Assembly (NCBI GenBank): GCA_029204225.1
Contig: CM055094.1
Location: 16,023,595 to 16,087,594, forward strand
DNA length: 64,000 nt
Direction: 5' to 3'
Source of the DNA: Diphasiastrum complanatum
Taxonomy: Eukaryota; Streptophyta; Lycopodiopsida; Lycopodiales; Lycopodiaceae
A program made the position numbers and the translations under genes. Each line of letters starts with the position of its first letter. Position 1 is the stretch's first letter. Below, one piece after another: positions 992 through 41,850 of this stretch. Under the pieces are notes generated by a model. It had not been told where the DNA came from and did no database searches. It worked only from the letters and a program-made list of their open reading frames with translations.

Positions 992-1409
992 AGTTACGAA
1001 TAGAGCCACAGCTGATCTAGAATTAAGCTATGAAAGCATCACATAAGCAAGACTTAACCCTAGAAAGCAGGAAAGAGAGAGATTAAGGAGGCTAAAGAGA
1101 GAGATCAATATCATCAGCTGAATGACAAATGACACAGTTTCCCTACTTATAGCCAAGAGGAAGCCCTAAAAGGAAGCTTCCAGTGGCTAGGGCCCAATTG
1201 GGAGAGATAATAGTGCGCCCTCCAAGAAGGCCCCCACTCTCCAGTAATATGTCCAAATGGCCTAATAATGAATAATAAGGCCAAAGGCCAACCATATAGT
1301 CTGAATGTCACTAATGAATAAAAAAGGGCCCAAGGCCTGCTTATGCATAAAGTAAAGTAACTGTAAATGTAAATGGACGCAGCGAATGTAATGAGCCGAG
1401 TCCATAACT
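992..1409 (-). repeat. 3' LTR of the Ty3/Gypsy chromovirus
   Basis: A 418-bp direct repeat of 6771-7188 with five transition differences. In minus sense it begins AGTTATGG and ends CGTAACT, forming a 5-bp inverted terminal repeat. The left flank is the target duplication CACTT (987-991). Confidence 0.95.
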
Positions 1410-1418
1410 CTCCCCGAC
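1410..1418 (-). other. Polypurine tract of the chromovirus
   Basis: In minus sense the sequence TGTCGGGGAG runs directly into the 3' LTR. A purine-rich stretch in this position is the plus-strand primer expected of an LTR retrotransposon. Confidence 0.75.
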
Positions 1419-1455
1419 ACAAAAAAAAGACCCAACTGCCGAAAAGATAACCGGA

Positions 1456-1989
1456 TCAAGTAGCAGCAAGCCCTGGTGCATCAACAGCTACAGGAACATC
1501 TGATGTAGAGGAATCAACAAGTGCAGCAAGAGCACGAGCCTGATCCGCAAGTAATGGTGTATGATAAAACACATCAATAGGCTCCCATGTAGCCTCCTCA
1601 ATAGGACGACCATCCCACTAGACCAAAAACTGAATCTGCCGGCGGCGTCGACTATGGTATAGACGGACCTGTAATATAGCAGCAGGTAAAAATAGAAATA
1701 ACTCTGGAGCAGTAGGAAACTCAGCATCACAAGGAGCGTCATCCTCAATAGCAACACGTAATAAACTGACATGGAATACATCACAGGCGCGTGTGGAAGC
1801 AGGAAGCTGTAAGCGATATGTAACTGGACTAAGAACCTCCACAATGCGATAAGGCCCATAATAACGTGGTGCAAGCTTCTCAGTAGAAGCATGGCCCTGG
1901 ACAAAATGATGACGTACAAACCGTAAGCGTAGATAAACCATATCTCCAAGTTGAAACTCAACATGGCGGCGGTGACGATCAACTGAGGT
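1456..1989 (-). pseudogene. Ty3 integrase C-terminus and chromodomain
   Basis: This continues the integrase frame after the stop at 1990-1992. It contains the GPYRIVEVLSPVTYRLQLP and FHVSLLR motifs typical of the Ty3 integrase tail. A chromodomain-like segment follows (LYHSRRRRQIQFLV, a TAG at 1618-1620, then WDGRPIEEATWEP). The chromodomain is thought to steer integration to marked chromatin in chromoviruses. The reading frame closes with TGA at 1456-1458, shortly before the PPT. Two premature TAG codons break it. Confidence 0.85.
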
Positions 1990-3465
1990 CTAATAACGCT
2001 GCTGAACATGCTGTAAATGACAACTGGCCCGAGTAATAAGCTCTCGAGCACCTGATAGAAAAGATGCAAGTGTAACAGGTGTATCCTCAGGAGGAAGAGG
2101 AATGCCAGGTAAAAGAGGTGCATAGCCATGAGATAATAAAAATGAAGAGACACTTGTGCTGGTACTAACAGAGCTATTATAGCTATACTCTGCTAAACAT
2201 AAATGCTGATCCCAATCCTTCCCTGAAGGAGTAACAAAATGGCGTAAATAATCCTCAAGGATCCTGTTAAGGACCTCAGACTGCCCATCAGAAGTAGAAT
2301 GATAAGCAGAACCCATAAAAAGCTGAACATCCAAAATACGCATAAGCTCTGTCCAGAATATAGATGTAAACTTACTATCCCGATCAGAAAGGATAGTACG
2401 AGGAAATCCGTGCAGGCGGAAAATCTCTAATAGGAACAAACGTGCACACTGCTCTGCTGTGATAGTACTGCGAACTGGGATAAAATGTGCCTGTTTCAAG
2501 AACCTGTCAACTACCACCATACATGAATCGTGACCACGCTGGGTATGGGGAAGGCCAAGGATAAAGTCCATAGATATATCAGTCCACTGGCGATGAGGAA
2601 TAGGCCAACTCTGGAGCAAACCAGCAGATTTAGAACGGGAGTACTTATTACGAAGACAAAAAGGGCAGGTACGAATAAGTACAGCAAGCTCAGATCGAAG
2701 AGAGGGCCAATAGAAATGGTCTTTGAGACGAGCATAAGACTTCTGAAAACCAAAGTGACCCCCAACAGGAGAGGAATGAGCATCCGACAACAACTGGGAA
2801 CGGATACCCAAAGAACTAGGGATACAAAGAGAATCATAATGATAAAGACGATTGTCAGTAATGGAGTAAACCTGATGAGGACTGGACGAAACAGGTGGGG
2901 CAGAACTATAAACATCACGAAAATCAGAACATGTAAGGTATGCTGCAGGTAGAGCATCAAACCATGGAGGAATAGTAGAAACGAGTGTATTTAACAAAGC
3001 TGGAAGACGAGATAATGCATCAGCAGCAGTGTTAGCACGACCAGGACGATACAATATGGAGAAATTAAAAGACTGTAAAAACTGCAACCAACGAAATTGA
3101 CGATCACTAAGGTCACGTTGAGAAAACAGATAACGTAAAGACTGGTGATCAGTAATAATGTCAAATGGGACTCGATACAGATAATGACGCCACTTCTTAA
3201 GAACATAGATAATAGCAAGAAGCTCTTTCTCATGCACAGAATAACGTTGCTCATAAGAGCGAAGACGACGCGACTCATAAGCAATAATACATTGTGACTG
3301 GCGAAGTAAAGCACCCAAACCAACATTACTAGCATCAGTCTCAACAAGAAACTTCTGATCAAACTGTGGTAAACACATAACCGCAGCATCAACAACAGCA
3401 CGACGAAGAGTATCAAACGTTGTCTGACAATCAGGAGTCCACAGAAAAGTACTACACTTCTTCAA
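1990..3465 (-). pseudogene. Ty3 RNase H and integrase core
   Basis: The frame is open for 491 codons. RNase H is seen first (ETDASNVGLGALL, YSVHEKELLAI, ITDHQSLRYL and GRANTAADALSR contain its acidic residues). The integrase follows: an HHCC zinc-binding region (H-S-S-P-V-G-G-H-F, then CPFCLRNK), then the DDE core with WTDISMDFI, LSDRDSKFTS and TSDGQSEVLNR. The frame ends in TAG at 1990-1992, where the family continues without a break. Minus-strand sequence upstream joins it to RT through a TAA at 3529-3531. Confidence 0.93.
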
Positions 3466-4397
3466 AAGTGCATGAAGAGGAGCTACGATAGTGGCAAAAT
3501 GAGGAACTGGACGACGAAGGTGAGTGGCTTACCCAAGAAACATACGAACATGATGAATATCAGTAGGTATAGGCCAATCCTGGATGGCCTGAACCTTATG
3601 AGGGTCCAGACGAATGTGACCATTACAAATAAGAAAACCAAGAAACTCGATCTCAAAAACAGCAAAAGAACATTTAGACAACTTAGCAAATAACTGGTGG
3701 TGTACAAGTAACTGAAAGGCCGAGGAACGATGGGCAACATGCTCAGCAAGAGACTGACTAAAAAAATAAGAATATCATCAAAATAAACCAAGACACAATG
3801 ACCAAGAAGCGGACGTAAGACGTTATTCATCACATTCTGGAACGTAGGAGGGCCATTAGTAACACCAAAAGGAAGTACACGAAATTCATATAAACCAAGA
3901 TGAGTACGGAAAGCAGTCTTATGTTCGTCATAAGGGTGCATCCTGATATGGTAATATCCAGAACGAAGGTCTATCTTGGAAAAGATTTTAGAGGTACCGA
4001 GCTGGTCAAAGAGGTCATCCATGTGGGGAATAGGGTACTTATTACGAATAGTCAACTTATTTAAAGCACGGTAATCAATACAAAGGCGTTTGGTACCATC
4101 TTTCTTATTAATAAGGAGAACAGGAGCACCAAAAGGGCTGTGACTAGGAACAATGAGACCCTGATCTAACAAGGCAGTAATATGGAGCTCAAGCTCATCA
4201 CGCTCAGATCGAGACATACGATAAGGGGGACGGGAGGGAGGAGCAGAACCAGGATGCAAATCAATATGATGGTTCACGTCACGTAATGGTGGTAGCGTCG
4301 TAGGTTCTGAAAAAACAAAAGCATACTGATGTAATAAGTCAGAAATCACCTGAGGAACAGCTGCTGGTGTAGAAACTGGAGGAACTGGTACTGCCCG
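3466..4397 (-). pseudogene. Ty3 reverse transcriptase
   Basis: RT fingers and palm are clear: [48 protein letters not shown] and the catalytic box VYFDDILIF. The frame is lost immediately after this box at a run of A residues on the plus strand (about 3760-3766). The run is consistent with an indel that changes phase. The downstream part continues in the shifted frame, through a TAA at 3529-3531, into the RNase H segment. RT copies element RNA into cDNA in the virus-like particle. Confidence 0.92.
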
Positions 4398-6092
4398 CTA
4401 AACACATAATAAGGCAGCACAATGAGCCTTCGGCAGGCTGCGAATAAACTGCTTCCCAGTAATGAACTGGAAGTCTCCCTGAGAATCAATGCCCACAAGT
4501 GAGTGTGTAACTGCATCATGTACAAATGTCAATGTCTGCTGTGTCAAGTCCAGTGTAACGGCTCCAAGAGATGCAAACCAATCAGCACCTAGGATAAGAT
4601 CATAACGCTCCATAGGGATAATGTAAAGATCTGCCTGTCCAGAGAAATCTCCAATGCGGTATGGTAAACGCTGAAACATCTGAGAACTAGGAAAAGAATG
4701 AGAACTGGCAACCTCAACTGTGAGAGGCTGGGAAGCAGGAACAGGTGAAGCACGGATCCGACTAGTGATATAACTGCTAATAAAAGAATGAGTGCTACCA
4801 GTATCAACTAAAGCAACATACTCTCGACCTGTAATACGCACACGTAACCGAATGGAGCGAGGACCAGGACGCCCTGTCCAAGTAGCATAGGCAAGCTGAG
4901 CATGGCAAGTAGCAGGAAGTAAATTAGGGGAAGGCTCAGAGGATAAGTCAGGCTCATCAGAAATATGAATGTAGATATCGGAATCATCTGGAGTAGTGCC
5001 CTCATGGTAAAAAACAGCAGTAGTAGTAGGGAGAGGCTGGCGGCAATCACGGGCAAGATGGTCAGGACTCTTACAACGAAAGCAAAGACGCTTCTGCTGA
5101 AGATCAGCGAACTCTGCAGACGTGTAATGTCGGACAAAAGCAGGTCGAGGAGTCGGAGGACGAGGAGGCGAAGGGGCAATGGAGAGAGCTGGAACAGAAG
5201 GGGCCGGTGTAGGGGTGAACGTAGCGGGAAAAGATGAAGCAGAAGGACGGGGTCGGGAGAAGCGGGAAGGAAGGGTGTCAGAGTACTTATGTTGTAAAGT
5301 ACTGGCAAGAGACATCGCCTCAACAAGTGTGGTAGGACGGAAGGAAGAAACATCATAACGTAAAGCACCACGAAGCCCAGCAATGTAACGAGAAATAAGC
5401 TCAGTGGGCTGTAGATCTGTGAAAAGATAAGAAAGCTCCATAAACTGATCTGTATAAGAAGCAAAATCACTGGTCTGAATGAGACTACGGAATGTATCAT
5501 GTTGGCGGTCAAGCCACTGAGGATCAATCATAGCATGGCGGAGGTCACGGCGAAAAGTATGCCATACATGGAGCCCTTCCCGATCAGGATCAACTCTATA
5601 AACTCGCCACCACGTGGCGGCACGTCCATCTAAATGTAAAGCAGCCAACTGGATCTTCTGAGGATCAGTCTTGGGGTAAATCTGAAAATATGTGTCAAGC
5701 TTAGCAAACCAATTCTCTAATAAGTTCCCGTCGGCGGAATAGGTAGCAAGTTGTACCCTATCACGAAAGTCTCAAGCAAAGTGTGGCTCAGGAAGGGGGG
5801 GACTAGGAAAGAAACCAGGAGGTGGGTTAGATGGAATGAACGGTCCACCACCAGGCTGACTAGCAGAAGAAGATGGAAATCCAAATGGAGGGGGAGTCCC
5901 AAATGTAGGAAAAACAGGAGCTTTACCAGGACCATGAGGCTATAAAGAATCAATCTGTGACTGCATAGTAGCAAAGCCGGTCATAACTGAATCGAAGCGA
6001 AGAACGAGGCCAGAAAGGGTCTCATCCATGCGACGAAACTGATCGGATAAGGTTTCCTGAGTAGTCTCACTCGGGGTAGGTGAATGTGCCAT
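4398..6092 (-). pseudogene. Ty3 Gag and aspartic protease
   Basis: The likely start is the ATG at 6092 (MAHSPTPSETTQ). The frame is broken by TAG at 5940-5942 and TGA at 5772-5774, then runs open for 416 codons to TAG at 4398-4400. Gag capsid motifs (LDGRAATWWRVYR, ELSYLFTDLQPTELISRYIAGL) are followed by a CCHC knuckle (CFRCKSPDHLARDC). A retropepsin site follows (VALVDTGSTHSFIS) with its partner segment LILGADWFASLGAV. The RT frame continues directly past the TAG at 4398, so Gag and Pol were probably one long reading frame. Confidence 0.92.
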
Positions 6093-6756
6093 AATGATAG
6101 TGGAAGGAATAGACGAAAACTTGAGGGTGCGGACTCTTGTCGTCACCCCAAATTAGCCTATTACAACCAATATTATCACAACTGAAAAAAACAGACAACA
6201 ATGAACAATGGAGAAGCTGTAAAAATGCGCTGGACAGCCAGGGATACAATGTGAATTTGAAAGAGTAAACCTCCAGTCAGAATTCCTGAAAATGTGGTGG
6301 AGAATGAGCGCGCGACAGCCTTTTGATAAGCTGTAAAAGATGGCTGGAATTGGAGAAAAAAAAAGGCAAAAGTGACAAGTTGGGAGTGTTGAGGCAGCGA
6401 TTTACAGGTTGAAGAATTTTAGCTATTTGGAATAGCAAATGATGTCGGAATTGGATAGTTTTTGGATGAGGATGGGCATTGGACAGTCAGGGAACTAACT
6501 GTGGAAGATGGCTGCAAACTGGAAAAATATCAGACGAAAGTGATAGGTCGGAAGGCAAGGACAGTGATGGAAAGGAAGAGGAGGAGCGCTGGGCAGCAAA
6601 GAAAAGAGGGGACAAAACAGGGGGAACGTTGGGCAGGAAGGAGTGGAAGGAGCAGCGATGGAACAGGGCTGTCAAAACGGTAATGGAGCTGCAGGAACAG
6701 CGATGGAGGAGCAAGGCAAGGCAGCAAAGAAAAAATTCCAGATTGTGCTCAGAAAA

Positions 6757-6770
6757 GTGCTCTGATACCA
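6757..6770 (-). other. Primer binding site (initiator Met tRNA)
   Basis: In minus sense the sequence TGGTATCAGAGCAC abuts the 5' LTR with no spacer. TGGTATCAGAGC is the standard PBS complementary to plant initiator-Met tRNA. Confidence 0.93.
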
Positions 6771-7188
6771 AGTTACGAATAGAGCCACAGCTGATCTAGA
6801 ATTAAGCTATGAAAGCATCACATAAGCAAGACTTAACCCTAGAAAGCAGGAAAGAGAGAGATTAAGGAGGCTAAAGAGAGAGATCAATATCATCAGCTGA
6901 ATGACAAATGACACAGTTTCCCTACTTATAGCCAAGAGGAAGCCCTAAAAGGAAGTTTCCAGTGGCTAGGGCCCAACTGGGAGGGATAATAGTGCGCCCT
7001 CCAAGAAGGCCCCCACTCTCCAGTAATATGTCCAAATGGCCTAATAATGAATAATAAGGCCAAAGGCCAACCATATAGTCTGAATGTCACTAATGAATAA
7101 AAAAGGGCCCAAGGCCTGCTTATGCATAAAGTAAAGTAACTGTAAATGTAAATGGACGCGGCGAATGTAATGAGCTGAGTCCATAACT
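6771..7188 (-). repeat. 5' LTR of the Ty3/Gypsy chromovirus
   Basis: A 418-bp direct repeat of 992-1409. The right flank is the target duplication CACTT (7189-7193). Promoter activity is expected here by position; I did not identify a convincing TATA box. Confidence 0.95.
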
Positions 7189-7193
7189 CACTT

Positions 7194-11920: not shown

Positions 11921-12994
11921 GCTTTAGTGACTAGACTACCTTAGGGGGACTCAAGAGACTGGCCCATTTGTATTACTATTTAGTATTTAGTATTCTGGTT
12001 AGTTTATAGAAATTAGGAGTTGAATTTGAACTTTGAAGTTTTGAGATTATAAACTTGAGCAGGCTGCAACGTTGTTACCATTTGGCATTTATGGATGAGT
12101 TAAAACTACATATATGATTCAAGACTCAGGTAACAAGTTTGCATCTTCGTAATGTTCAAATGTGGAATGTTTCAATTATCAATGTTGAATGTCGAATGTC
12201 GAATGGGATTTGTACTCACAGACTACGGTAAGTTGTAAGTTGTAACTCAAGAGTTAATATTTAGAAGTTAGAACTTACTACTTAGTATTGTAACTTGTTA
12301 CTTGTAAGCTATTAGAAGTTAGAACTTAGTACTATAATCTATTACTTGTTAATAGTTAAAAGTTACACAATGCACATTGTATACATTGTCATTTTCGTGA
12401 AATTCGAATCATTGAACATTTGCTAATTTACCACTAACTAACCATGCACATGGTACATTGGAATATGACATATGTAATATGTAATATGTATGATGTGACA
12501 TTAATGTTTTAAAAAAAAAACCCTAAAACTGATTCGCCGGTTCGAACCTGGAGAAGCCGATTCTTTCCCGATTCAAACACGGTTCAAAAAGGCGATTCGA
12601 AAGGTACCCTCAAACATTGATTTAATTGACCTGTAGGCTCATACTGGTCCTCATGTTGCCATTCAGAGTGATTATGACCCTCATAATCAACAACGCTATA
12701 CTCATTTTCATCTGGGCCATCGTTATATTCGTCTGCATCACCAAGCTGATATTCCTGATCATCTAGTTGACAAACATGATCCCCATCGGAATATTGTTCA
12801 TGCTCATCCGTATCATCATCACATTGCTGATCATCCTGTTGACAATCGACACCATCATCACATTCCTCCTCATCTTGTTGACAATCATCACCACCATCAT
12901 CATATCAATCCCTTTGTTTACCATACTCATAATCATTTCCATCCCATTGATCTTCATAATCGGACATATATTCATTATGAGTGTCCATGGTATA
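11921..12994. other. hAT 3' flank, then AT-rich sequence
   Basis: No gene is seen. The stretch around 12531-12601 holds a dense group of GATTCG and CGATTC copies that I take as the 3' subterminal region of the hAT element. Positions 12763-13008 consist of ATC/CATC-rich simple sequence that opens frames on both strands without meaning. Confidence 0.45.
12531..12601. repeat. GATTCG/CGATTC cluster (possible hAT subterminal repeats)
   Basis: Within 71 bases the motifs GATTCG, GGTTCG, CGATTC, CGATTC, GGTTC and CGATTCG occur in both orientations. Two other clusters of the same motif sit at 13846-13903 and 18485-18546. Clusters of short motifs near the ends are the usual transposase binding sites of hAT elements; the link here is inference. 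Confidence 0.45.
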
Positions 12995-13138
12995 TGTTGG
13001 AATATCAATCCACACTCTAGAGAGAACTATCAAACAGGGCGGATAGCTTAGTGGTAGAGCATCCCATCCAGTACGAGGGAGGTCCTGGGTTCAAATCCTA
13101 GTCTGTCCATCCATATTATGATTTATGGATTTCTAACA
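12995..13138 (+). repeat. 5' LTR of the TRIM
   Basis: A 144-bp repeat, TG...CA bounded, differing from the right copy (13254-13397) at five positions, all transitions and all inside the tRNA-like block. In this copy the B box is GGTTCAAATCC. Confidence 0.95.
13037..13109 (+). ncRNA. tRNA-like block in the left TRIM LTR
   Basis: A 73-nt segment with tRNA layout: acceptor GGGCGGA pairing with TCTGTCC, D arm GCTT/GAGC, T arm CTGGG/CCTAG around TTCAAAT, and final A. The A-box-like sequence is TAGCTTAGTGG. Three of its differences from the right copy look like decay of CpG sites, so the right copy is closer to the ancestral form. Confidence 0.7.
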
Positions 13139-13151
13139 TGGTATCAGAGCC
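13139..13151 (+). other. Primer binding site of the TRIM
   Basis: TGGTATCAGAGCC lies directly against the 5' LTR and matches the 3' end complement of plant initiator-Met tRNA. Confidence 0.93.
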
Positions 13152-13240
13152 AAGTTAGACCTAACAGTTCATGGTGTCAAAGCCATGGTTAGGTTGCCCA
13201 AGTTGTGGGGCAGTGACAGCTAGGACCCCAACCAAGTGTG

Positions 13241-13253
13241 GCTTGAGGGGGGG
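13241..13253 (+). other. Polypurine tract of the TRIM
   Basis: The G-rich run GAGGGGGGG directly precedes the 3' LTR that begins TGTTGG at 13254. Confidence 0.85.
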
Positions 13254-13397
13254 TGTTGGAATATCAATCCACACTCTAGAGAGAACTATCAAACAGGGCG
13301 GATAGCTCAATGGTAGAGCATCCCATCCGGTATGAGGGAGGTCCTGGGTTCGAATCCTAGTCTGTCCATCCATATTATGATTTATGGATTTCTAACA
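13254..13397 (+). repeat. 3' LTR of the TRIM
   Basis: A 144-bp repeat with the same length and ends as 12995-13138. The right flank is the target duplication GTATA (13398-13402). Confidence 0.95.
13296..13368 (+). ncRNA. tRNA-like block in the right TRIM LTR
   Basis: A 73-nt segment whose acceptor stem GGGCGGA/TCTGTCC pairs at all seven positions (two G-T). The D arm GCTC/GAGC and T arm CTGGG/CCTAG also close. T8, A14, GG in the D loop, TTC in the T loop and the discriminator A are in tRNA positions. A box is TAGCTCAATGG; B box is GGTTCGAATCC, a perfect consensus. The anticodon arm (TCCCA, loop TCCGGTA, TGAGG) has one C-A mismatch and a C where U33 is expected, so it is unlikely to work as a tRNA in translation. 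No TTTT terminator follows closely. I cannot assign an isotype. Confidence 0.75.
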
Positions 13398-13402
13398 GTA
13401 TA

Positions 13403-13845
13403 GTGACAGGCAGTCTGTGGGTTATGGGTCCACAAAACTGAATGAAGTGAAAAGAATTTGGAACAATTATAAATTTCACTGGTAAAATCACAAATTTGCT
13501 AGTGAAAAATTTGTTCTTCTCCATCGTCCCAAAATTCCGAGTCCTCGAAGAATGTAACCTGCAAAATTTAGGGAACAGCAATAGCTTTTGCAAAATGTCA
13601 ACTTTGTTTCATTGATCGGTTTTGGCTTTTATACCACTGCTATCATGTCAAGCTCGACGTAATAATCACTTTTGCTTTTTACTGCGTTGCAAACCGAGGT
13701 CAAACGGAGAAAATACGAAATGTGAACAAGTTAAGACAGAAGGCCCCTAATAAAAGTAATGATGACGAAAACGTTGATCACTATACTCAGTACAATGAAC
13801 TGAGCAATTTTCAATTTTGCAACCTTGAATTCCAACCATAGTTGC
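13403..13845. other. Unassigned sequence between TRIM and second hAT
   Basis: No convincing gene, repeat or RNA is seen. Confidence 0.4.
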
Positions 13846-20563: not shown

Positions 20564-23112
20564 TTACCTCCCCTTCCAAAGGTTCCTCTTCTAAATAAGG
20601 AAATCTGGGAATCTCAATCTAAGGTCTTGCTCCTAATCCCAAGTGTCCTCATCTTTGGAACTTCCTTTCCAACCAACCAAGTACTCAGTTACTTGCCGAT
20701 TTCTAAACCCACATTGACGTACATAAACAATGGCCTGAGCTTCAGAGGGTACAAAGGATGTTAGGTCCTGTAGCTGAACTAGCTTATCCTGTAGAATCAA
20801 TTCATCCTTTCCACCGAGTCATTCCTTTAAACGACTGATGTGGAAGACTAGGTGAATATTGATTCCCTAAGGAAGGTCTAGTTGATATTCCAATTGAGTT
20901 TCTTTACAATACAGAAAGGCCCAGCATATCAAGGCGATAACTTAGGACATTTTCCATTCTTTAGTACCTTAGAGTCTTTTGGGACTTTAAGATATGCCCA
21001 ATCTCCTTCCGCAAACATCCTAGGTTGTCGGTTTTGGTTAGCGTAAAACTGGGCTCTATCCTGAGCCTCTTTTACGTTATCGTGAGCAACAAGCAGCATT
21101 TCTTGCATATCATGCAAGAAATCCACCACCGCTTTAACCTTAAGGCTTTTGAGGCCCATGGAGATTGGAGCTCTAGGCTGAAAACCATACATCAGAGTGA
21201 ATGGTCTAAAACCTGTCGCTCCTTTGCCCAAGTGTCCTCATCTTTGAAACTTCCTTTCCAACGAACCAAGTACTCAGTTACCTGCCGGTTTCTGACCCCA
21301 CATTGACGTACATCAACAATGGCCTAACGTTCAGAGGGTATAAAGGATGTCAGGTCCTCTAGCTGAACTAGCTTATCCTGTAGAATCAATTCATCCTTTC
21401 CACCAAGTCGTTCCTTTAAACAACTGACGTGGAAGACTAGGTAAATACTGATTCCCGGAGGAAGGTCTAGTTGATAGGCATTCCGATTGAGTTTCTTTAC
21501 AAAACGGAAAGGCCCAGCATATCGAGGCGATAACTTAGGACATTTTCCATTCTTTAGTACCTTAGAGTCTTTTAGGACTTTAAGATACGCCCAATCTCCT
21601 TCCGCAAACATCCTAGGTTGTTGCTTTTGGATAGCGTAAAACTGGGGGCTCTATCCTGAGCCGTTTTTACGTTATCGTGAGCAACAAGTAGCATTTCTTG
21701 CATATCATGCAAGAAATCCACCGCTGCCTTAATCTTAAAGCTTTTAAGGCCCATGGAGATTGGAGCTCTAGGCTGAAAACCATACATCAAAGTGACTGGT
21801 CTAAAACCTGTCGCTGAGTGCTTTGCGCTATTATATGCAAACTCAATGGTTGGAAGGTACTTTTCCCAATCCGACTATCTACCAGGTCCTAACTCCGGCT
21901 TTCTCTACATCCTCTTTTTAATTTGGATCTGATGATACTCTGATCTCAAATCGATTTTTGGTGAAGTACTTTGCACCATGTAATCGATCAATCAGCTCAT
22001 CCATTCGAGGTAGGGGATAACGGTTTTTTATAGTTAAATTATTTAATTTTTATAATCTACACACAGACGAGTTCCTCAATTGTGTGTAGATCCGTCATCG
22101 AATAAAACTGCTATGGCCTGGCCACCAACAACCCCATTCATCCGAATCAAGTCGTGGGGACCAAAAGCTGTCGCATTAAAACAACAATGCGCACATTATG
22201 CTAGAGTTAACCTGGTGTCTTAAAAGAAGCCCTTTAGTTTTTCTCCTTTTCTTCAGGCAATCCTTTGCCATATGACCTGCCTCCATGCAATTGAAGCACA
22301 AATTGTCACTTCTGGCTTTTGCAAAGTCTCCTGGTCCATGGTAGATCTTTTCTTTCGACTTACTAGGACCCGAAGATGCCTCCTCCGCCTTGTCTTTTCC
22401 TTTCTTTGAAAAGAACGGTTTCTTGCCCTTTACATCAGGCTGAACACCAGGCTCAGGCCTTGCCACTATACGAGAATCATCTTATATACAAGCAAAGCGA
22501 ACTGCATCATCGAGGGTAAGAGGCTGGTTCCTCCTAACCTCTAGTTGGTAATCTCTAGGCAAACCTAGTATGAAATGCAACTTAACCAAAAGAGGATCTA
22601 TCCTAGTTGCAAATATTGATCAAGGGGCCGGGTCCACATGTGTATCATCACATACTGACGATAAAACTCAAAAAGATAGGAAGAAAGGCCGCCTTGAAGG
22701 CGTTGCAAAAATCCTCCCAAGTCTTAGGAGCTTCGGGTCTTCCCCTCATCTCCTACCACCAAGTAAACGCTTTACCTCGCAACTACATGATAGCCAGGTT
22801 GATCTTATTGTCGTCGGAAGAATCGTGGATTGGAAAAGTGCAAATTCCACCGATCAATCCACGAGGTGACCACATCAAGGGATGTCCTTCTTTTCCCCAA
22901 TGAAGATTTCAACTGTGAACAGGGGCTAGTGCAATAGTTGCCTTAACTGCGTTAGTTCCCTCAAATCTTGTTGATCCTTTGTATGTCTTGCTTGCATATC
23001 AGCAATATGTTGTTGTGAATTGCCAACATAAAAGTATCAAAATCTAAAGCAGAAGCAGTTGTCATAGTTTCTGCAGGAGGAGATGTAGGCTGTGTGGAAG
23101 GGCTAGGATCCA
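20564..23112 (-). pseudogene. Ty3/Gypsy chromovirus interior, deleted and rearranged
   Basis: In minus order: Gag start near 23112, a CCHC knuckle near 22300 (CFNCMEAGHMAKDC), a protease trace (LFDDGSTHN) near 22090, a short RT trace ([13 protein letters not shown] type) near 21990, integrase C-terminus (FAYNSAKHSATGF, LMYGFQPRAPISMG), and a chromodomain (VTEYLVRWKGSFKDEDTW). Most of RT, RNase H and the integrase core are missing. The integrase-tail-to-chromodomain part is present twice in tandem. The terminal codons run through the PPT into the LTR. Confidence 0.82.
20640..21820 (-). repeat. Tandem duplication of about 590 bp
   Basis: The sequence starting AAGTGTCCTCATCTTTG occurs at about 20640 and again at about 21232. 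Both copies run on through the chromodomain and integrase tail and end at a shared AAAACCTGTCGCT. They differ by scattered substitutions, so the duplication is not recent. It falls inside the Ty3 integrase region. Confidence 0.85.
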
Positions 23113-36093: not shown

Positions 36094-36401
36094 TGTGAGG
36101 TTATGTGTCAATGCACAATTGATCATGTACATAATAGGACGAACAATCATAGATACACCATTATCAGAGCGTAAACGAAAGCAATAAAGCTACAAGCCAA
36201 ATCAGACAAATCAGAATCACAAAAAGCGTATTGATCTTCTATTGATTACCCATCATATACAAAAGAAGGCACTTTTCCATATGTGTCCCTAAGCCTATCA
36301 AGAAAGCATCATGCCTACGTGTACCTAGCGTAACCGTTAGCCTAGTTTCCTAACTTTCGAGTCAGCTTCACCTGACTGTGAAGTGTCACTGCAAACCCAC
36401 A
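36094..36401 (-). repeat. 3' LTR of the Copia element
   Basis: In minus sense it begins TGTGGGTTTGC and is preceded by a purine-rich AGTGAGAGAGGG tract. Left flank ATATA. Confidence 0.93.
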
Positions 36402-36454
36402 AAACCCTCTCTCACTTCACAGTCTACTTATGCTACTTTACAAAATCATCTTTC

Positions 36455-37825
36455 TCATTTCTCAATCCTATCATCTCTTAATGAAACAAAACGACTCTTG
36501 ACTAATGACTTTGTCATTATGTTTGCAAGCATAAACTCAATGCCACAGAATTTCAATCTAAGCTTTCCATCCTGCACCAAGTCCCTGACGAAGTGATATT
36601 GTATTGCAATATGCTTGCTTTTCTTGTGGAACCCGGCATTCCTGCTGAGGAATAGACATCCCTGATTTTTGTTGTAGAGCGTCATACTGTTGGTGTCAAT
36701 TCCCAACTCGCTTAAGATGGTCTGCATCCACAAGTATTCCTTTGCTCCATGACAAACCCCCATGTACTCAGACTCAGTGGTGAATAGGGCTGTAGAATGC
36801 AGTTTCTTACAGCTCCATCTTATGCAAGATCCCCCCATCATATATATGTAACCACTGGTGGATTTCCTGTCATCGATGTCCCCTCCCCAATCCGAATTCA
36901 CATAGCCTGTCATTGAGTCTCCATCAGTCCTATACATGAGACCAAGGCCTGATGTCCCTTTCAAATATCTGATGCCTCTCCTTGTCGCCTGCCAATGCTC
37001 ATCTCCAGGGTTGTAAGGAATTGACTCAGCTTAGTGACTGCCACCCCTAGATCTGGCCTAGTACATACCATGGCATAGGCTGCCAATCAAGTTCCTATAC
37101 AGTTTGTTCTTCATCATGTCTTCTTCTTCTTGTATGATGGGGCTCATCTCTCTACTCAGCTTCGTGTTGGGATCTAGTGAGATTCCCACAGGTAAGCAAT
37201 CTTGCATTCCAAACATCTCAACCAGAGAATTTATGTATATCGTCTGTCCCATCCATGTCAAGCCCCTCTCCCTATCTCTTATGATCTGTATTCCCAAGCA
37301 GTAGTGTATTGCTCCCAAATCCTTCATTTCAAAAGTCCCCTTTAGTTTTTCTTTGAACTCTTTCAAGTCCACTTTATTGTTGCAAACTATTATCAAGTCA
37401 TCTACATATAGTGCAACAGCTAGGAACAGCCCATCTTCAATTCTTATGTACATCCCAGTGTCCGCATAGCACCTCCTAAATTCGTTTTCCATGAAAAATG
37501 AATCAATTTTCTGGTACCACATCCTAAAGGATTGCTTTAGACCATATAAAGCCCTTTTCAGGGCGCATACCTTGTCAGAGCCATCGATGAAACCAGGTGG
37601 TTGCCTCATGAACACCTCCTCCTCCAAGTCCCCGTTCAGAAACGCGGTCCTCACGTCCATCTGTTCAATTTCCATTCCCCACATGGTTCCCCATGCTATT
37701 AAGATCCGGAATGAGCTTAATTTGACCACTAGTGCAAACGTCTCCATATAGTCGATTCCTTCGATCTGTGAGTATCCCTTTGCGACCACTGGCCTTGTAT
37801 CGGTCCACACTTCCGCTTGCATCAT
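36455..37825 (-). pseudogene. Copia reverse transcriptase and RNase H
   Basis: The RT block holds VVAKGYSQIEGIDYMETFA, EQMDVRTAFLNGDLEEEVFM, LKRALYGLKQSFRMWYQK and the catalytic VALYVDDLIIVCNN. After a break near 37058-36965 the RNase H follows (GYVNSDWGGDIDDRKSTSGY, TTESEYMGVCHGAKE, HIAIQYHFVRDLV). The frame closes at 36455, shortly before the PPT and 3' LTR. The break loses about 30 codons of frame but little sequence. Confidence 0.9.
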
Positions 37826-39199
37826 ATTTTACCTTGAAGACCCATTTGCATCCTATGGCCTTCCTCCCTGCTGGCAGGTCCACTAACTCCCATGCATTAT
37901 TCTTGTTGATTGAGTTAATCTCTTCCCTCATTGCTTCATCCCAAAGCTTCCATTCTGGGCTGGATTTTGCCTCCTCAGGTGTCTCTGTTTGCTTGTCTTC
38001 TTCCTCGTCGAATATTACATCCTTGGACAAGACTACCTTAGATGTCTGGGGGTTGAATACCTTGTATCCATATGCATTCTCTGGGTACCCTACGAATATA
38101 CAAGGCAAGCCTCTTGGATCCAGCTTTTTTCTCAACTTCTCCGGAATGTGAGCATAAGCCTTGCTCCCAAATATCTTCAACCCCATTGAGGGCTTTTCTC
38201 CTGACCACACAGCCTCTGGTATTTCGTCCTTTAAGACTCTACTTGATACTCTTTTGGAAATATAAGCGGCTGCGCCAGCCGCTTCCGCCCACATGAAGCT
38301 TGGCAATCCTTAATCATACAGCATGCTCCTGGCCATGTTCATAAGGGTGCGGTTTTTGCGTTCAGCAATCCCATTTTGCTGAGGGGAGTATAACATAGTG
38401 TATTCCTGATGTATCCCCTTTTCTTTGCAGAAACCTTTGAATTTATTCCCAATAAACTCTCCCCCATTGTCTGATCTGACCCTCTTTACCCTCCTCCCTG
38501 TCTGCGCTTCTGTCAACATGACAAATTCCTTGAACTTCTCTGCCACTTGGTCTTTGGTCTTCAACGTGTACAAGAAAGTCTTTCTGCTAAAATCGTCTAT
38601 GAAAGTAAGAAAGTACTTCAAATGTCCCAGGGATTCCGGATCTATAGAACCACACATGTCCGTGTGTATCAGCTCCAAGATCGTCGTTGTTACGGTCCCA
38701 TCTCTTCTCTTAAACGGTTCCCTGTGTTGCCTTCCAAGGACACAACTTTGGCATAAGATCGAAGAAGATACTTTTCGAAAATCCTCGAATTTTTTGCGAA
38801 ATCTTCATCATAGTCAAAGCCTGTTACGAGTCCCTTTTTCTTCATTGTTTGCAACGCCTCTGCTCCCAGGTGTCCCAACCTCCTGTGCCAGAGGGTGCCT
38901 TTCCTGGTTTTCGAAACCGCTATGCATGCTTGATGATCAACAATCACCCCCAAGTTCATCTTGTATAGCCCCCCGTCTTCCACTGCACTAGTCAACATCT
39001 CTCCATCCTTGAAAATCAGGCACTTGTTCTTCAGGAACCTCAGTTCCAGTCCGCTCTGAGTGAATTTCTTGATCGACAAAAGATTCTTGGATAGCTTTGG
39101 AACAAACATCACGCCCCTTAACAGCCCCTTCTTCTCTCCTTCAAGTCTCAGTAACACACTTCCGCTGCCTGGTGATCGAATTGTCATATTGTTACCCAC
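37665..39199 (-). pseudogene. Copia integrase with pre-integrase region
   Basis: In order: VMFVPKLSKNLLSIKKFTQS, TLWHRRLGHLGAEAL, MELIHTDMCGSIDPESLGHL, FLTFIDDFSRKTFLYTLKTK, VRSDNGGEFIGNKFKGFC, and QQNGIAERKNRTLMNMARSM (DDE core), then FGSKAYAHIPEKLRKKLD and a linker into RT (EAMREEINSINKNNAWELVD). Breaks are seen near 38700 (frameshift between pre-integrase and core) and at a stop at 38310. Confidence 0.9.
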
Positions 39200-40351
39200 G
39201 ACTACCCTCCTTTCTTGGCGGTTCTCAAAGTAGTCGTCAGTATGCTCTTGTCATTCGTCATGTGTGTCGTCACACCAGAATCCAAGTACCAATTGCCATC
39301 TCTCTCCATGTTGTCTTCAGAGCTTGTGATCTCGATGAGGCCATCCTGGTAATGTCCTTTCCTTGGGGTGTGCTTGACTCTCGCCCCTTTGCTGCGTTTC
39401 TCTTTCCCTATCGCCATGAAAGCTATATCTTCCTCCTCTTTCTCTTCCTCTGTTACGTTCGTGTGTGTTGCATTCTTCTTCTTCATGTCCTCTGCCCTCT
39501 TGTTGCATTCTCTCGCTATATGTCCGTTGTTGCTGCAATAGTAGCAAATGATGTTCTTTCTGCGCTCCCCTTGTGAAGCCTTCCCGGATCGTCCATGCCA
39601 GTAATGTTTCTTATCTAATCCTTGCTTCTTCCAGTTGTCTCGATTGTCCCTTAACCCGCAAAAGTGGCGCTCTTCCGATCAGAGCTAATTTCTCCGTTCC
39701 CATCTGGCTCTTCCTCCTTTCATCTTCCTGCAACAGCCTTTGCACATTGTTCAGTTCAAGATCCTCTATGCACGTGCTCTCAAGCACCATGATCAATGGA
39801 TCGTAGGACACAGGCAAACTTCCCAAGATTGTAAAAACAAGATGAGTTTTTTCCACGACTGCTCCAGGTGCTTCCAATTGTCTCGCCAAGCCTTTCATTC
39901 TCTCAAGGTGCTCCAGCAGGGACTCACCTTCTGCCATCTTGGTATTAGCCAATCTCCTCCTTAGGAGCAGCACGTTTGCTACACCCTTTCCTTCGTATAT
40001 GCCTTCCAGTGTCTTCCACACCGCTGCAGAAGGTTTGGCATGCTGCACCTACGAAGCAGGCATCTCACCCAGGCTCAAGCAAATTGTGGCAAACGCCTTC
40101 TTCTCCCGCACCTGAAAGGCTCTGGCAGCCTCAGCATTCAGAACACCTTCCCTATCGACCGCAAGAGGAGCCTCTGTTCCCTCCACGATCCCCCATAGCC
40201 CCTTCTCCTCAAGAATCATCTTGATTCTCCACTTCCACAAAGCATATTTTTCCCCTTCGAACCTCTCGATTGCTCGGTGCTCAACAACTCCATGCACTTC
40301 CATCTTTCTGATCGTCGGTTTGCTTAATCTTTCGCCCCTCCTCTCGAACAC
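39200..40351 (-). pseudogene. Copia Gag and protease
   Basis: Gag starts near 40351 or at the inner ATG of MEVHGVVEHRAIERFEGEKY. Capsid motifs (AVWKTLEGIYEGKG, LLLRRRLANTKMAEGESL) lead to a CCHC knuckle near 39530 (CYYCSNNGHIAREC). The protease site is WYLDSGVTTHMTND. A stop lies at 40049, and the frame changes near 39600 and again before the protease-to-integrase link. Confidence 0.87.
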
Positions 40352-40421
40352 TCGGATTCCGTACCCATGTCTCTTCGCAGACGTCAGCTATTCTTTATGT
40401 TGTACGTGGGCCCATAACCTT

Positions 40422-40737
40422 TGTGAGGTTATGTGTCAATGCACAATTGATCATGTACAAAGTAGGACGAACAATCATAGACACACAATTATCAGAGCGT
40501 AAACGAAAGCGATAAAGCTACAAGCCAAATCAGAATCACAAAAAGCATATTGATCTTTTATTGATTACCCATCATATACAAAAGTGATGATCAATGCCAG
40601 GAAGGCACTTTTCCATACGTGTTACTAAGCCTATTAAGAAAGCATTATGCCTACGTGTACCTAGCTTAACCGTTAGCCTAGTTTCCTAACTGCCGAGTCA
40701 GTTTCACCTGACTGTGAAGTGTCGGTGCAAACCCACA
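40422..40737 (-). repeat. 5' LTR of the Copia element
   Basis: A 316-bp copy of 36094-36401, with an extra 18-base piece near 40585. Right flank ATATA. Confidence 0.93.
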
Positions 40738-41850
40738 ATATAATGGTCCAACGAAAATGTCATTGTAATCACCGATGGTATCAAAGTGTCGCCAAGTGCG
40801 GAATGCTTCTCTCCGCTTCTTAAACGAATAACATAGATTGTAAGTTTGATATGATCCTTGAAATGTGAAGAAGGGATATCTTATGCATCTCAAGAGATAG
40901 CATAAGAACACGACCCTGAAAAGTAGCCGGATTAGAAGGCATGGTTACAACCAGAACGTGTATCCGAAGCGAAACTTGAAATAGCATGTTGAGGACAATT
41001 TGTTATCTGAAATTGTCTAGAACTGGTGTAATGTCTCAGCACGTGATGTAACTTTTCATCATTATGTGCCTCTGATGTAGTGATTCTCTCAGTGAGTTCC
41101 TCCTAAGAAGATGAATGGATCTCAACGGTGGGTGGTCGTATATGAGCACCAAAAATTGGTAAAGAAATCTACCTCAAAATGCAACTAAAGAGCTGAATAT
41201 TGTCCAAAGTAAGATGCCCTGTATAGAGGATGAAAGAACCCTCAAAGAGTAGAATATCAGGCTGCAAAGTACTGTAAGAGATCTGTAAAAATCAGCCAAC
41301 CAAATCCACCAAAAATTTAACTAAAAGCAAGCTAAAACAACTCCAAATAAGTGTCAAAAGGTCAAATATAGACCAAAACCAAAATGGAACATATATTTAC
41401 AGTGAGGAGTCAAAGGGAACGTAAGAAAATATTTTGTGTGGTCGACAACCAAAGTACATTATAAGAATTTGTGCCTCCTCCACATAAAAAACTAAATTGT
41501 TGATCAAGTACTCAAATTTCCAAGATGAATTCAATAATGCATAGTGGCAAGAAACGTCAGTTTTGAAAAAGATAAAAACTTATGGTGTTTGTGTATGTAA
41601 AATATATATCATGCAAGTAGAATTGGTTCAAGGTCTAATCATAGTAAACAATCCACATGAAAGTAAATGACCTATTAACATATGCTCTCAATATATCACA
41701 TGTAACTTGCAAGTATCCACACAACATTTTGCTTACTTATATCACATGTAACTTCCAAGTATCCACACAACATTTTCAGTACTTCTATCATCTTCTTTAC
41801 AAAAAATTAATTACCATTGCAAAGTTTTGTTTCTCCTTCACACAATCTGA
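40738..41850. other. Intergenic, 3' flank of the plastid-type gene
   Basis: AT-rich, no gene recognised. Confidence 0.4.

Follow-up and report, generated by a model that had tools for sequence, protein, structure and literature searches.

A tRNA-like block in the LTRs of a high-copy miniature retrotransposon of the Helenus kind in Diphasiastrum complanatum

A 403-bp LTR element and its tRNA-like block

The stretch of Diphasiastrum complanatum DNA analysed here (64 kb in length and referred to as the window) holds at positions 12995-13397 a 403-bp element composed of an LTR, a short interior and a second LTR (Table 1). A sequence-only reading of the window had proposed a non-coding miniature LTR retrotransposon with 144-bp LTRs, a primer-binding site (PBS), a polypurine tract (PPT) and a GTATA target-site duplication (TSD), all of which were located; the span it gave, 12990..13402, does contain the element but also takes in the duplications on both sides. 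The LTRs are identical at 139/144 positions, and all five mismatches are transitions that fall within the tRNA-like block. Random 5-mers taken from the window agree in 0.13% of draws, which is the chance expectation for the GTATA duplication. The PBS, TGGTATCAGAGC, presumably pairs with the initiator Met tRNA.

In the list of open reading frames of at least 120 aa, a single stop-to-stop frame touches the element (12637-13020), and it lies mostly in the flank; the element has no polyprotein capacity, as 403 bp is too short for a retrotransposon polyprotein. A hairpin in the interior after the PBS was considered as a further feature and set aside as unconvincing (fold z-score -1.70, with 11/200 shuffles folding equally well). 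Self-comparison of the 64-kb window found no further copies of the LTR, and a scan of viral contigs with the LTR start and part of the block gave 0 matches.

Table 1. Features of the element and its immediate surroundings (window coordinates)
Feature	Position	Strand	Basis
5′ target-site duplication GTATA	12990..12994	+	sequence
5′ LTR, 144 bp, TG...CA	12995..13138	+	repeat comparison
AATAT at -36, possible TATA-like upstream Pol III element (weak)	13001..13005	+	
CAA at -6, weak candidate for a start site of plant tDNA type	13031..13033	+	
tRNA-like block of 5′ LTR	13037..13109	+	ARAGORN tRNA-Thr; Rfam RF00005, 48.4 bits
A box of 5′ LTR, TAGCTTAGTGG	13044-13054	+	arms check
B box of 5′ LTR, GGTTCAAATCC	13088-13098	+	arms check
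PBS TGGTATCAGAGC, tRNA-iMet type	13139..13150	+	exact, abuts 5′ LTR
Non-coding interior, 115 bp	13139..13253	+	sequence
Polypurine tract region CTTGAGGGGGGG, 3′ end of interior	13242..13253	+	sequence
3′ LTR, 144 bp, TG...CA	13254..13397	+	repeat comparison
tRNA-like block of 3′ LTR	13296..13368	+	ARAGORN tRNA-Thr; Rfam RF00005, 49.8 bits
A box TAGCTCAATGG and B box GGTTCGAATCC of 3′ LTR	in 13296..13368	+	arms check
3′ target-site duplication GTATA	13398..13402	+	sequence

The block occupies bases 43-115 of each LTR and is 73 nt long. Both window blocks score well above the Rfam RF00005 gathering score of 29 (Table 1), and ARAGORN, run on the whole window, calls tRNAs at these two blocks only, at exactly the coordinates to which the sequence-only reading had assigned its 73-nt tRNA layout. 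The right-copy A box TAGCTCAATGG and the consensus B box GGTTCGAATCC that it had named can likewise be read in the sequence. With G-U pairs counted, the acceptor, D and T arms are fully paired; the anticodon arm carries an A-A mismatch at pair 30-40 and a C at position 33, where the rule for tRNAs is U. It is because of C33 and this mismatch that the block is best described as a tRNA-like promoter block and not as a sound tRNA gene. The tRNA layout is one that tRNA models accept, although the 73 nt do not make up an intact tRNA. The idea that the block reproduces the primer tRNA, or serves as the element's own primer, is ruled out by the lack of complementarity to the PBS, the longest local match being 4 nt.

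Other repeats share the window. One, on the minus strand at 992-7189, is a Ty3-type (Gypsy) element with 419-bp repeats that are 98.8% identical and with gag and protease domains; it is probably a young insertion. A Copia-type element, also on the minus strand (36094-40738), has repeats of about 310 bp that are 86.5% identical, together with an RVT_2 domain, and self-comparison revealed a pair of neighbouring direct repeats, each about 595 bp long, at 20629-21815 (91.6% identical). At an E value of 1e-5, this self-comparison found no sequence common to the miniature element and the Ty3- and Copia-type elements of the window.

A dispersed family and a second one beside it

A search of the species' own genome (1.745 Gb in 5176 contigs) returned at least 44 matches, 40 of 1411 first-look candidates having been scored; 42 long matches among those scored, including the window copy, are 96-100% identical, and two short ones reach 72 and 81%. 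We examined 30 loci as a best-match set with the window copy among them. All 30 are full length and show the LTR-interior-LTR arrangement; L015 has a third LTR. An exact 5-bp TSD flanks 27/30 loci (L007 has one mismatch; in L027 and L028 the two flanks fail to match in register), the PBS is exact in 29/30 (L026 carries one change) and the purine tract in 27/30 (one change each in L010, L021 and L022). Seven pairs of loci lie in different places and nevertheless have identical 40-bp flanks (L012/L030, L006/L011, L013/L014, L021/L022, L008/L023, L024/L029 and L027/L028), each pair being either a duplicated segment or a product of duplicate assembly contigs. Counting every such pair once leaves 23 insertions, of which 21 have an exact TSD. 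The LTRs of a copy differ at 0-6 positions in the 21 of these insertions that have two LTRs of equal length, and in two insertions they are identical, from which it follows that some transposition is recent. Nine further loci all have two LTRs, and seven of the nine have exact TSDs; L038 and L039 share the same TSD and may be duplicates.

When one mismatch is allowed, a pattern joining the LTR end to the PBS has 1538 matches in the genome (control, 0), and a 24-mer pattern at the LTR 3′ end has 1642 (reversed control, 0). The latter is the safer measure of family size because the 1538 matches include other retrotransposons. One non-family element, in L076 (PBS at base 780, minus strand), has an LTR-end/PBS junction identical to that of the family (TTTCTAACA followed by TGGTATCAGAGCCAAG) and is, judged by this junction, a possible pointer to an autonomous helper.

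To reduce the bias of a best-match set, a map-ordered sample was drawn, consisting of the first 42 of 100 listed LTR-end+PBS places minus two already included; these 40 places, all exact matches, lie on C1 and C2. The LTR is present at 38/40, the other two being other elements. Two or more full-length LTR matches occur at 23 places and not at the remaining 17; among the 23, exact TSDs are found at 16 and are absent from 7, with two TSDs each seen twice and perhaps marking duplicates. ARAGORN calls at least one tRNA at 36/40 places, a second-family copy (L072, see below) perhaps among them, and none at four.

These numbers bear on three outcomes that the sequence-only reading had named as speaking against it, namely a lack of other copies, an ordinary tRNA gene pair with chance flanks and the absence of the block from other family members. 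Copies are many (1642 LTR ends), TSDs flank the majority of the examined ones and the block recurs in other members. A tandem tRNA gene pair with LTR-like flanks arisen by chance would explain why both blocks pass as tRNAs in ARAGORN and Rfam, but the 144-bp repeats extend well past the tRNA-like part, the PBS, PPT and TSD are exact and the anticodon arm is defective; given dispersed full-length copies whose TSDs differ from one to the next, this explanation is already refuted and retains practically no probability.

Within the sampled family, the block is a regular feature. ARAGORN calls a tRNA in 47/47 LTRs of the 23 insertions (43 Thr and 4 Pro), such that 22/23 insertions carry two predicted tRNA genes and the remaining one carries three. 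The B box GGTTCGAATCC is found in 41/47 LTRs and the A box TAGCTCAGTGG in 30/47, with two variants in 8 and 5; taken together, TAGCTCAGTGG, TAGCTCAATGG or TAGCTTAGTGG is present in 43/47. The anticodon arm is that of the window's right LTR in 37/47. The last figure also weighs on the view that the element partly serves to spread host tRNA-Thr genes, its block multiplying working genes. The 43/47 Thr calls would agree with such a role, and some fungal and bivalve Helenus families are predicted to encode tRNAs (PMC10886601); yet C33 in place of U33 and the A-A at pair 30-40 belong to the very arm shared by those 37 LTRs, ARAGORN assigns Pro to 4/47 LTRs and Ile to two LTRs in L034, and no TTTT follows the block within the element. 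We regard this role as highly improbable.

The locus L034 contains a nest of related elements. At 4168-5180, the window family is present as an array with three LTRs (TSD GTGGT), which sits within the 3′ LTR of a member of a second family. Rfam matches a tRNA in all three blocks of the array (30.5 to 50.0 bits); ARAGORN calls two of them, both as Ile, and makes no call for the third, which is the one at 30.5 bits. In the second-family element, the LTRs measure 150 and 148 bp (134/151 aligned columns identical) and the interior 73 bp; it also has the PBS TGGTATCAGAGCC, a purine tract and the TSD ATTCT. Rfam gives 50.3 and 32.2 bits for its blocks, the lower value coming from the interrupted 3′ LTR, for which ARAGORN makes no call. 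By global alignment, its block agrees with that of the window's 3′ LTR at 60/74 columns (81%), compared with 29/53 (55%) upstream and 14/29 (48%) downstream of the block. The second family, too, is repeated, with at least 86 genome matches (40 scored of 674 candidates). Another copy, L072, has blocks of 52.3 and 54.5 bits and LTRs identical at 150/153 positions; comparison of its flanks revealed no matching duplication.

Two further and weaker tRNA-like blocks in L034 (Rfam, 34.0 and 31.6 bits) suggest, from their sequence, the presence of older families. The second-family element adjoins an older tRNA-like block, and at 5423-5610 there is an older LTR-like stretch with two consecutive tRNA-like segments, the second of which scores 31.6 bits; this is perhaps another family with a duplicated block.

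Where the two LTRs of a copy differ

In the window copy, 5/5 differences between the LTRs fall inside the block (chance, 0.031). The same was examined in two larger sets, for which p values are indicative only since the insertions share ancestry. The best-match set comprised 20 of the 23 insertions (one with three LTRs and two whose LTR length is not 144 were dropped), and 46/56 differences lie in the block, which makes up 73/144 sites (p 1e-6). Once the window copy and the five columns that vary in it are excluded, 29/39 remain (p 0.001). In the map-ordered set of 22 insertions (one of 23 was dropped for having more than two LTRs), the count is 88/124 (p 3.5e-6).

The block holds 6/6 CG sites and 10/11 CHG sites of the LTR, and it is because nearly all sites of these two kinds are there that the differences concentrate in it. 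In the best-match set, the rate of difference per site and pair is 0.10 at CG and 0.09 at CHG sites of the block, 0.05 at the lone CHG site outside it (a single difference) and 0.006-0.02 at CHH and A/T sites; the corresponding rates in the map-ordered set are 0.17 for CG and 0.14 for CHG in the block, 0.23 for the outside CHG site and 0.01-0.05 for CHH and A/T sites. If CHH and A/T sites only are considered, 16/25 differences lie in the block in the best-match set (p 0.043) and 35/66 in the map-ordered set (p 0.11). The pattern fits what decay of methylated cytosines after insertion would be expected to produce. A faster evolution of the block through RNA-modification errors or relaxed function was also considered; CG and CHG sites mostly account for what it would explain. 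Finally, new copies still have their A and B boxes in spite of the highly mutable sites in them, which argues mildly for these boxes being functional in the source copies.

Transcription and place among known TRIMs

The sequence-only reading had seen in this element an analogue of Cassandra, i.e. a terminal-repeat retrotransposon in miniature (TRIM) with a Pol III-type block of tRNA-like kind, and everything tested is consistent with this. It knew of no published tRNA-bearing counterpart, yet there is one: under the name Helenus, Kojima (2024, PMC10886601) described TRIMs with a tRNA-derived sequence in their LTRs from fungi, animals and one plant, with a PBS, a PPT and, in fungi and plants, 5-bp TSDs, and proposed 'TRIMp3' as a class name that includes Cassandra. 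Helenus is mentioned again in a 2026 meeting report (PMC12859917). The traits of this group recur here: two LTRs and no coding sequence in less than 1000 bp (403 bp), a tRNA-derived sequence within the LTRs (47/47), an A box with TRGCY and YGG (43/47) and a B box with GGTTC (41/47), PBS and PPT bounding the interior (exact in 29/30 and 27/30 loci), 5-bp TSDs (27/30, 7/9 further and 16/23 map-ordered loci) and a block that is not complementary to the PBS (best match, 4 nt). Several families per genome and a degenerate tRNA structure are further points of likeness. The already described Helenus kind thus gains another plant, with at least two families, one of them that of the window element, the comparison with Helenus-1_SMo being one by description. 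That family comes from Selaginella moellendorffii, the sole plant in the Helenus listing, and has a 120-bp LTR and an 85-bp interior (PMC10886601), unlike the 144/115 and about 150/73 bp found here. No other plant case came up in searches of openly accessible papers, and a literature search with six pieces of the element's sequence gave no match.

With Cassandra, the element shares a Pol III promoter module of a small-RNA gene inside the LTR, an identical PBS (PMC7215508) and the formation of tandem LTR arrays (here L015 and L034). It is nevertheless not Cassandra, which has 5S rRNA in its LTRs: an Rfam scan of 12900-13500 with E up to 1 found tRNA twice and a weak plastid 3′ UTR match, and no 5S. 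Cassandra is also described with terminators in its LTR, and the window element has no TTTT. Ordinary plant TRIMs/SMARTs are alike in size, two LTRs, lack of coding sequence and tandem arrayed forms (Gao 2016, PMC4717578), and the words 'tRNA' and 'promoter' do not occur in the main text of that paper. tRNA-like sequences are known from another LTR retrotransposon, cqgypsy_1 of Culex, a Ty3-type element with two of them in tandem at the LTR/PBS boundary (PMC3286476), rather than inside both LTRs of a TRIM as here. A tRNA-like internal promoter is shared with tRNA-derived SINEs (SINE2) as well; here, however, the block lies within LTRs that are accompanied by a PBS, a PPT and a 5-bp TSD, and these point to integrase-type insertion, unlike in SINE2.

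We favour, with good confidence, the view that the window copy is a single insertion from a high-copy family of non-coding TRIMs of Helenus type, in which the block acts as an internal Pol III promoter and an autonomous LTR element supplies the proteins; from the sequence, we infer that the block is this promoter and not a working tRNA gene. TFIIIC would bind both boxes in the 5′ LTR, Pol III would start a few bases upstream of 13037 and the RNA would run through the interior into the 3′ LTR. Read-through of this kind would give an RNA with the block near both ends as its R region, and R would begin at or near the block. Initiator Met tRNA would prime reverse transcription at the PBS, with reverse transcriptase and integrase coming in trans from an autonomous LTR element, and the new copy would be inserted with a 5-bp duplication. 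Once in place, copies would decay fastest at CG and CHG sites, almost all of which are in the block, which would fit methylation of the promoter by the host. Kojima (PMC10886601) leaves Pol III transcription of Helenus unproven.

The nearest TTTT downstream is at 13586, 189 bp past the element, and 22/23 copies have none inside; a Pol III transcript would therefore end in the host flanking DNA, which need not block R-R strand transfer. The absence of TTTT was also considered as a sign of selection for Pol III transcription, and rejected on the grounds that 50% of shuffles lack it likewise. Upstream of the block, CAA at -6 and AATAT at -36 show a weak agreement with the CAA and TATA-like motifs reported for plant tRNA genes (PMC11700998); a TATA-like word occurs at -40..-23 of 6% of random positions and CAA at -10..-2 of 19%.

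The lack of a Pol III terminator and the weak upstream motifs would fit an ordinary Pol II TRIM whose block is a passenger, e.g. the head of a SINE inserted into an ancestral LTR, that no longer drives transcription; on Kojima's proposal, Helenus arose through SINE insertion (PMC10886601). Against this stand the absence of TATAAA and AATAAA from the window copy (TATATA was not found there either, and the 23 copies contain TATAAA, TATATA and AATAAA in 1, 0 and 0 cases, respectively), the block being the conserved part of two families whose LTRs are otherwise only about 50% alike and the A and B boxes being intact in most examined copies despite highly mutable CG and CHG sites. A passenger block thus appears unlikely to us, and a Pol III promoter remains the preferred reading.

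More tentatively, and with the odds somewhat against it, the lycophyte may have seen high-copy Pol III-driven TRIMs radiate into two or perhaps more families whose CG and CHG methylation would fall almost solely on the promoter block, so that silencing and mutational death would both hit the Pol III promoter; the block would then be kept across families only through the need of transposing copies for it, and transcripts without a terminator of their own would end in the flanks.

Since each full-length insertion as a rule brings in two predicted tRNA genes, such families will inflate tRNA gene counts. With at least two high-copy families, a plant genome joins the Pol III-type TRIMs, for which Kojima (2024) names Selaginella moellendorffii as the sole plant. 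Its young copies and their 73-nt putative promoter make a good test case for the idea that a tRNA-type promoter can sustain LTR retrotransposons, and also for whether plant methylation silences a promoter of this type.
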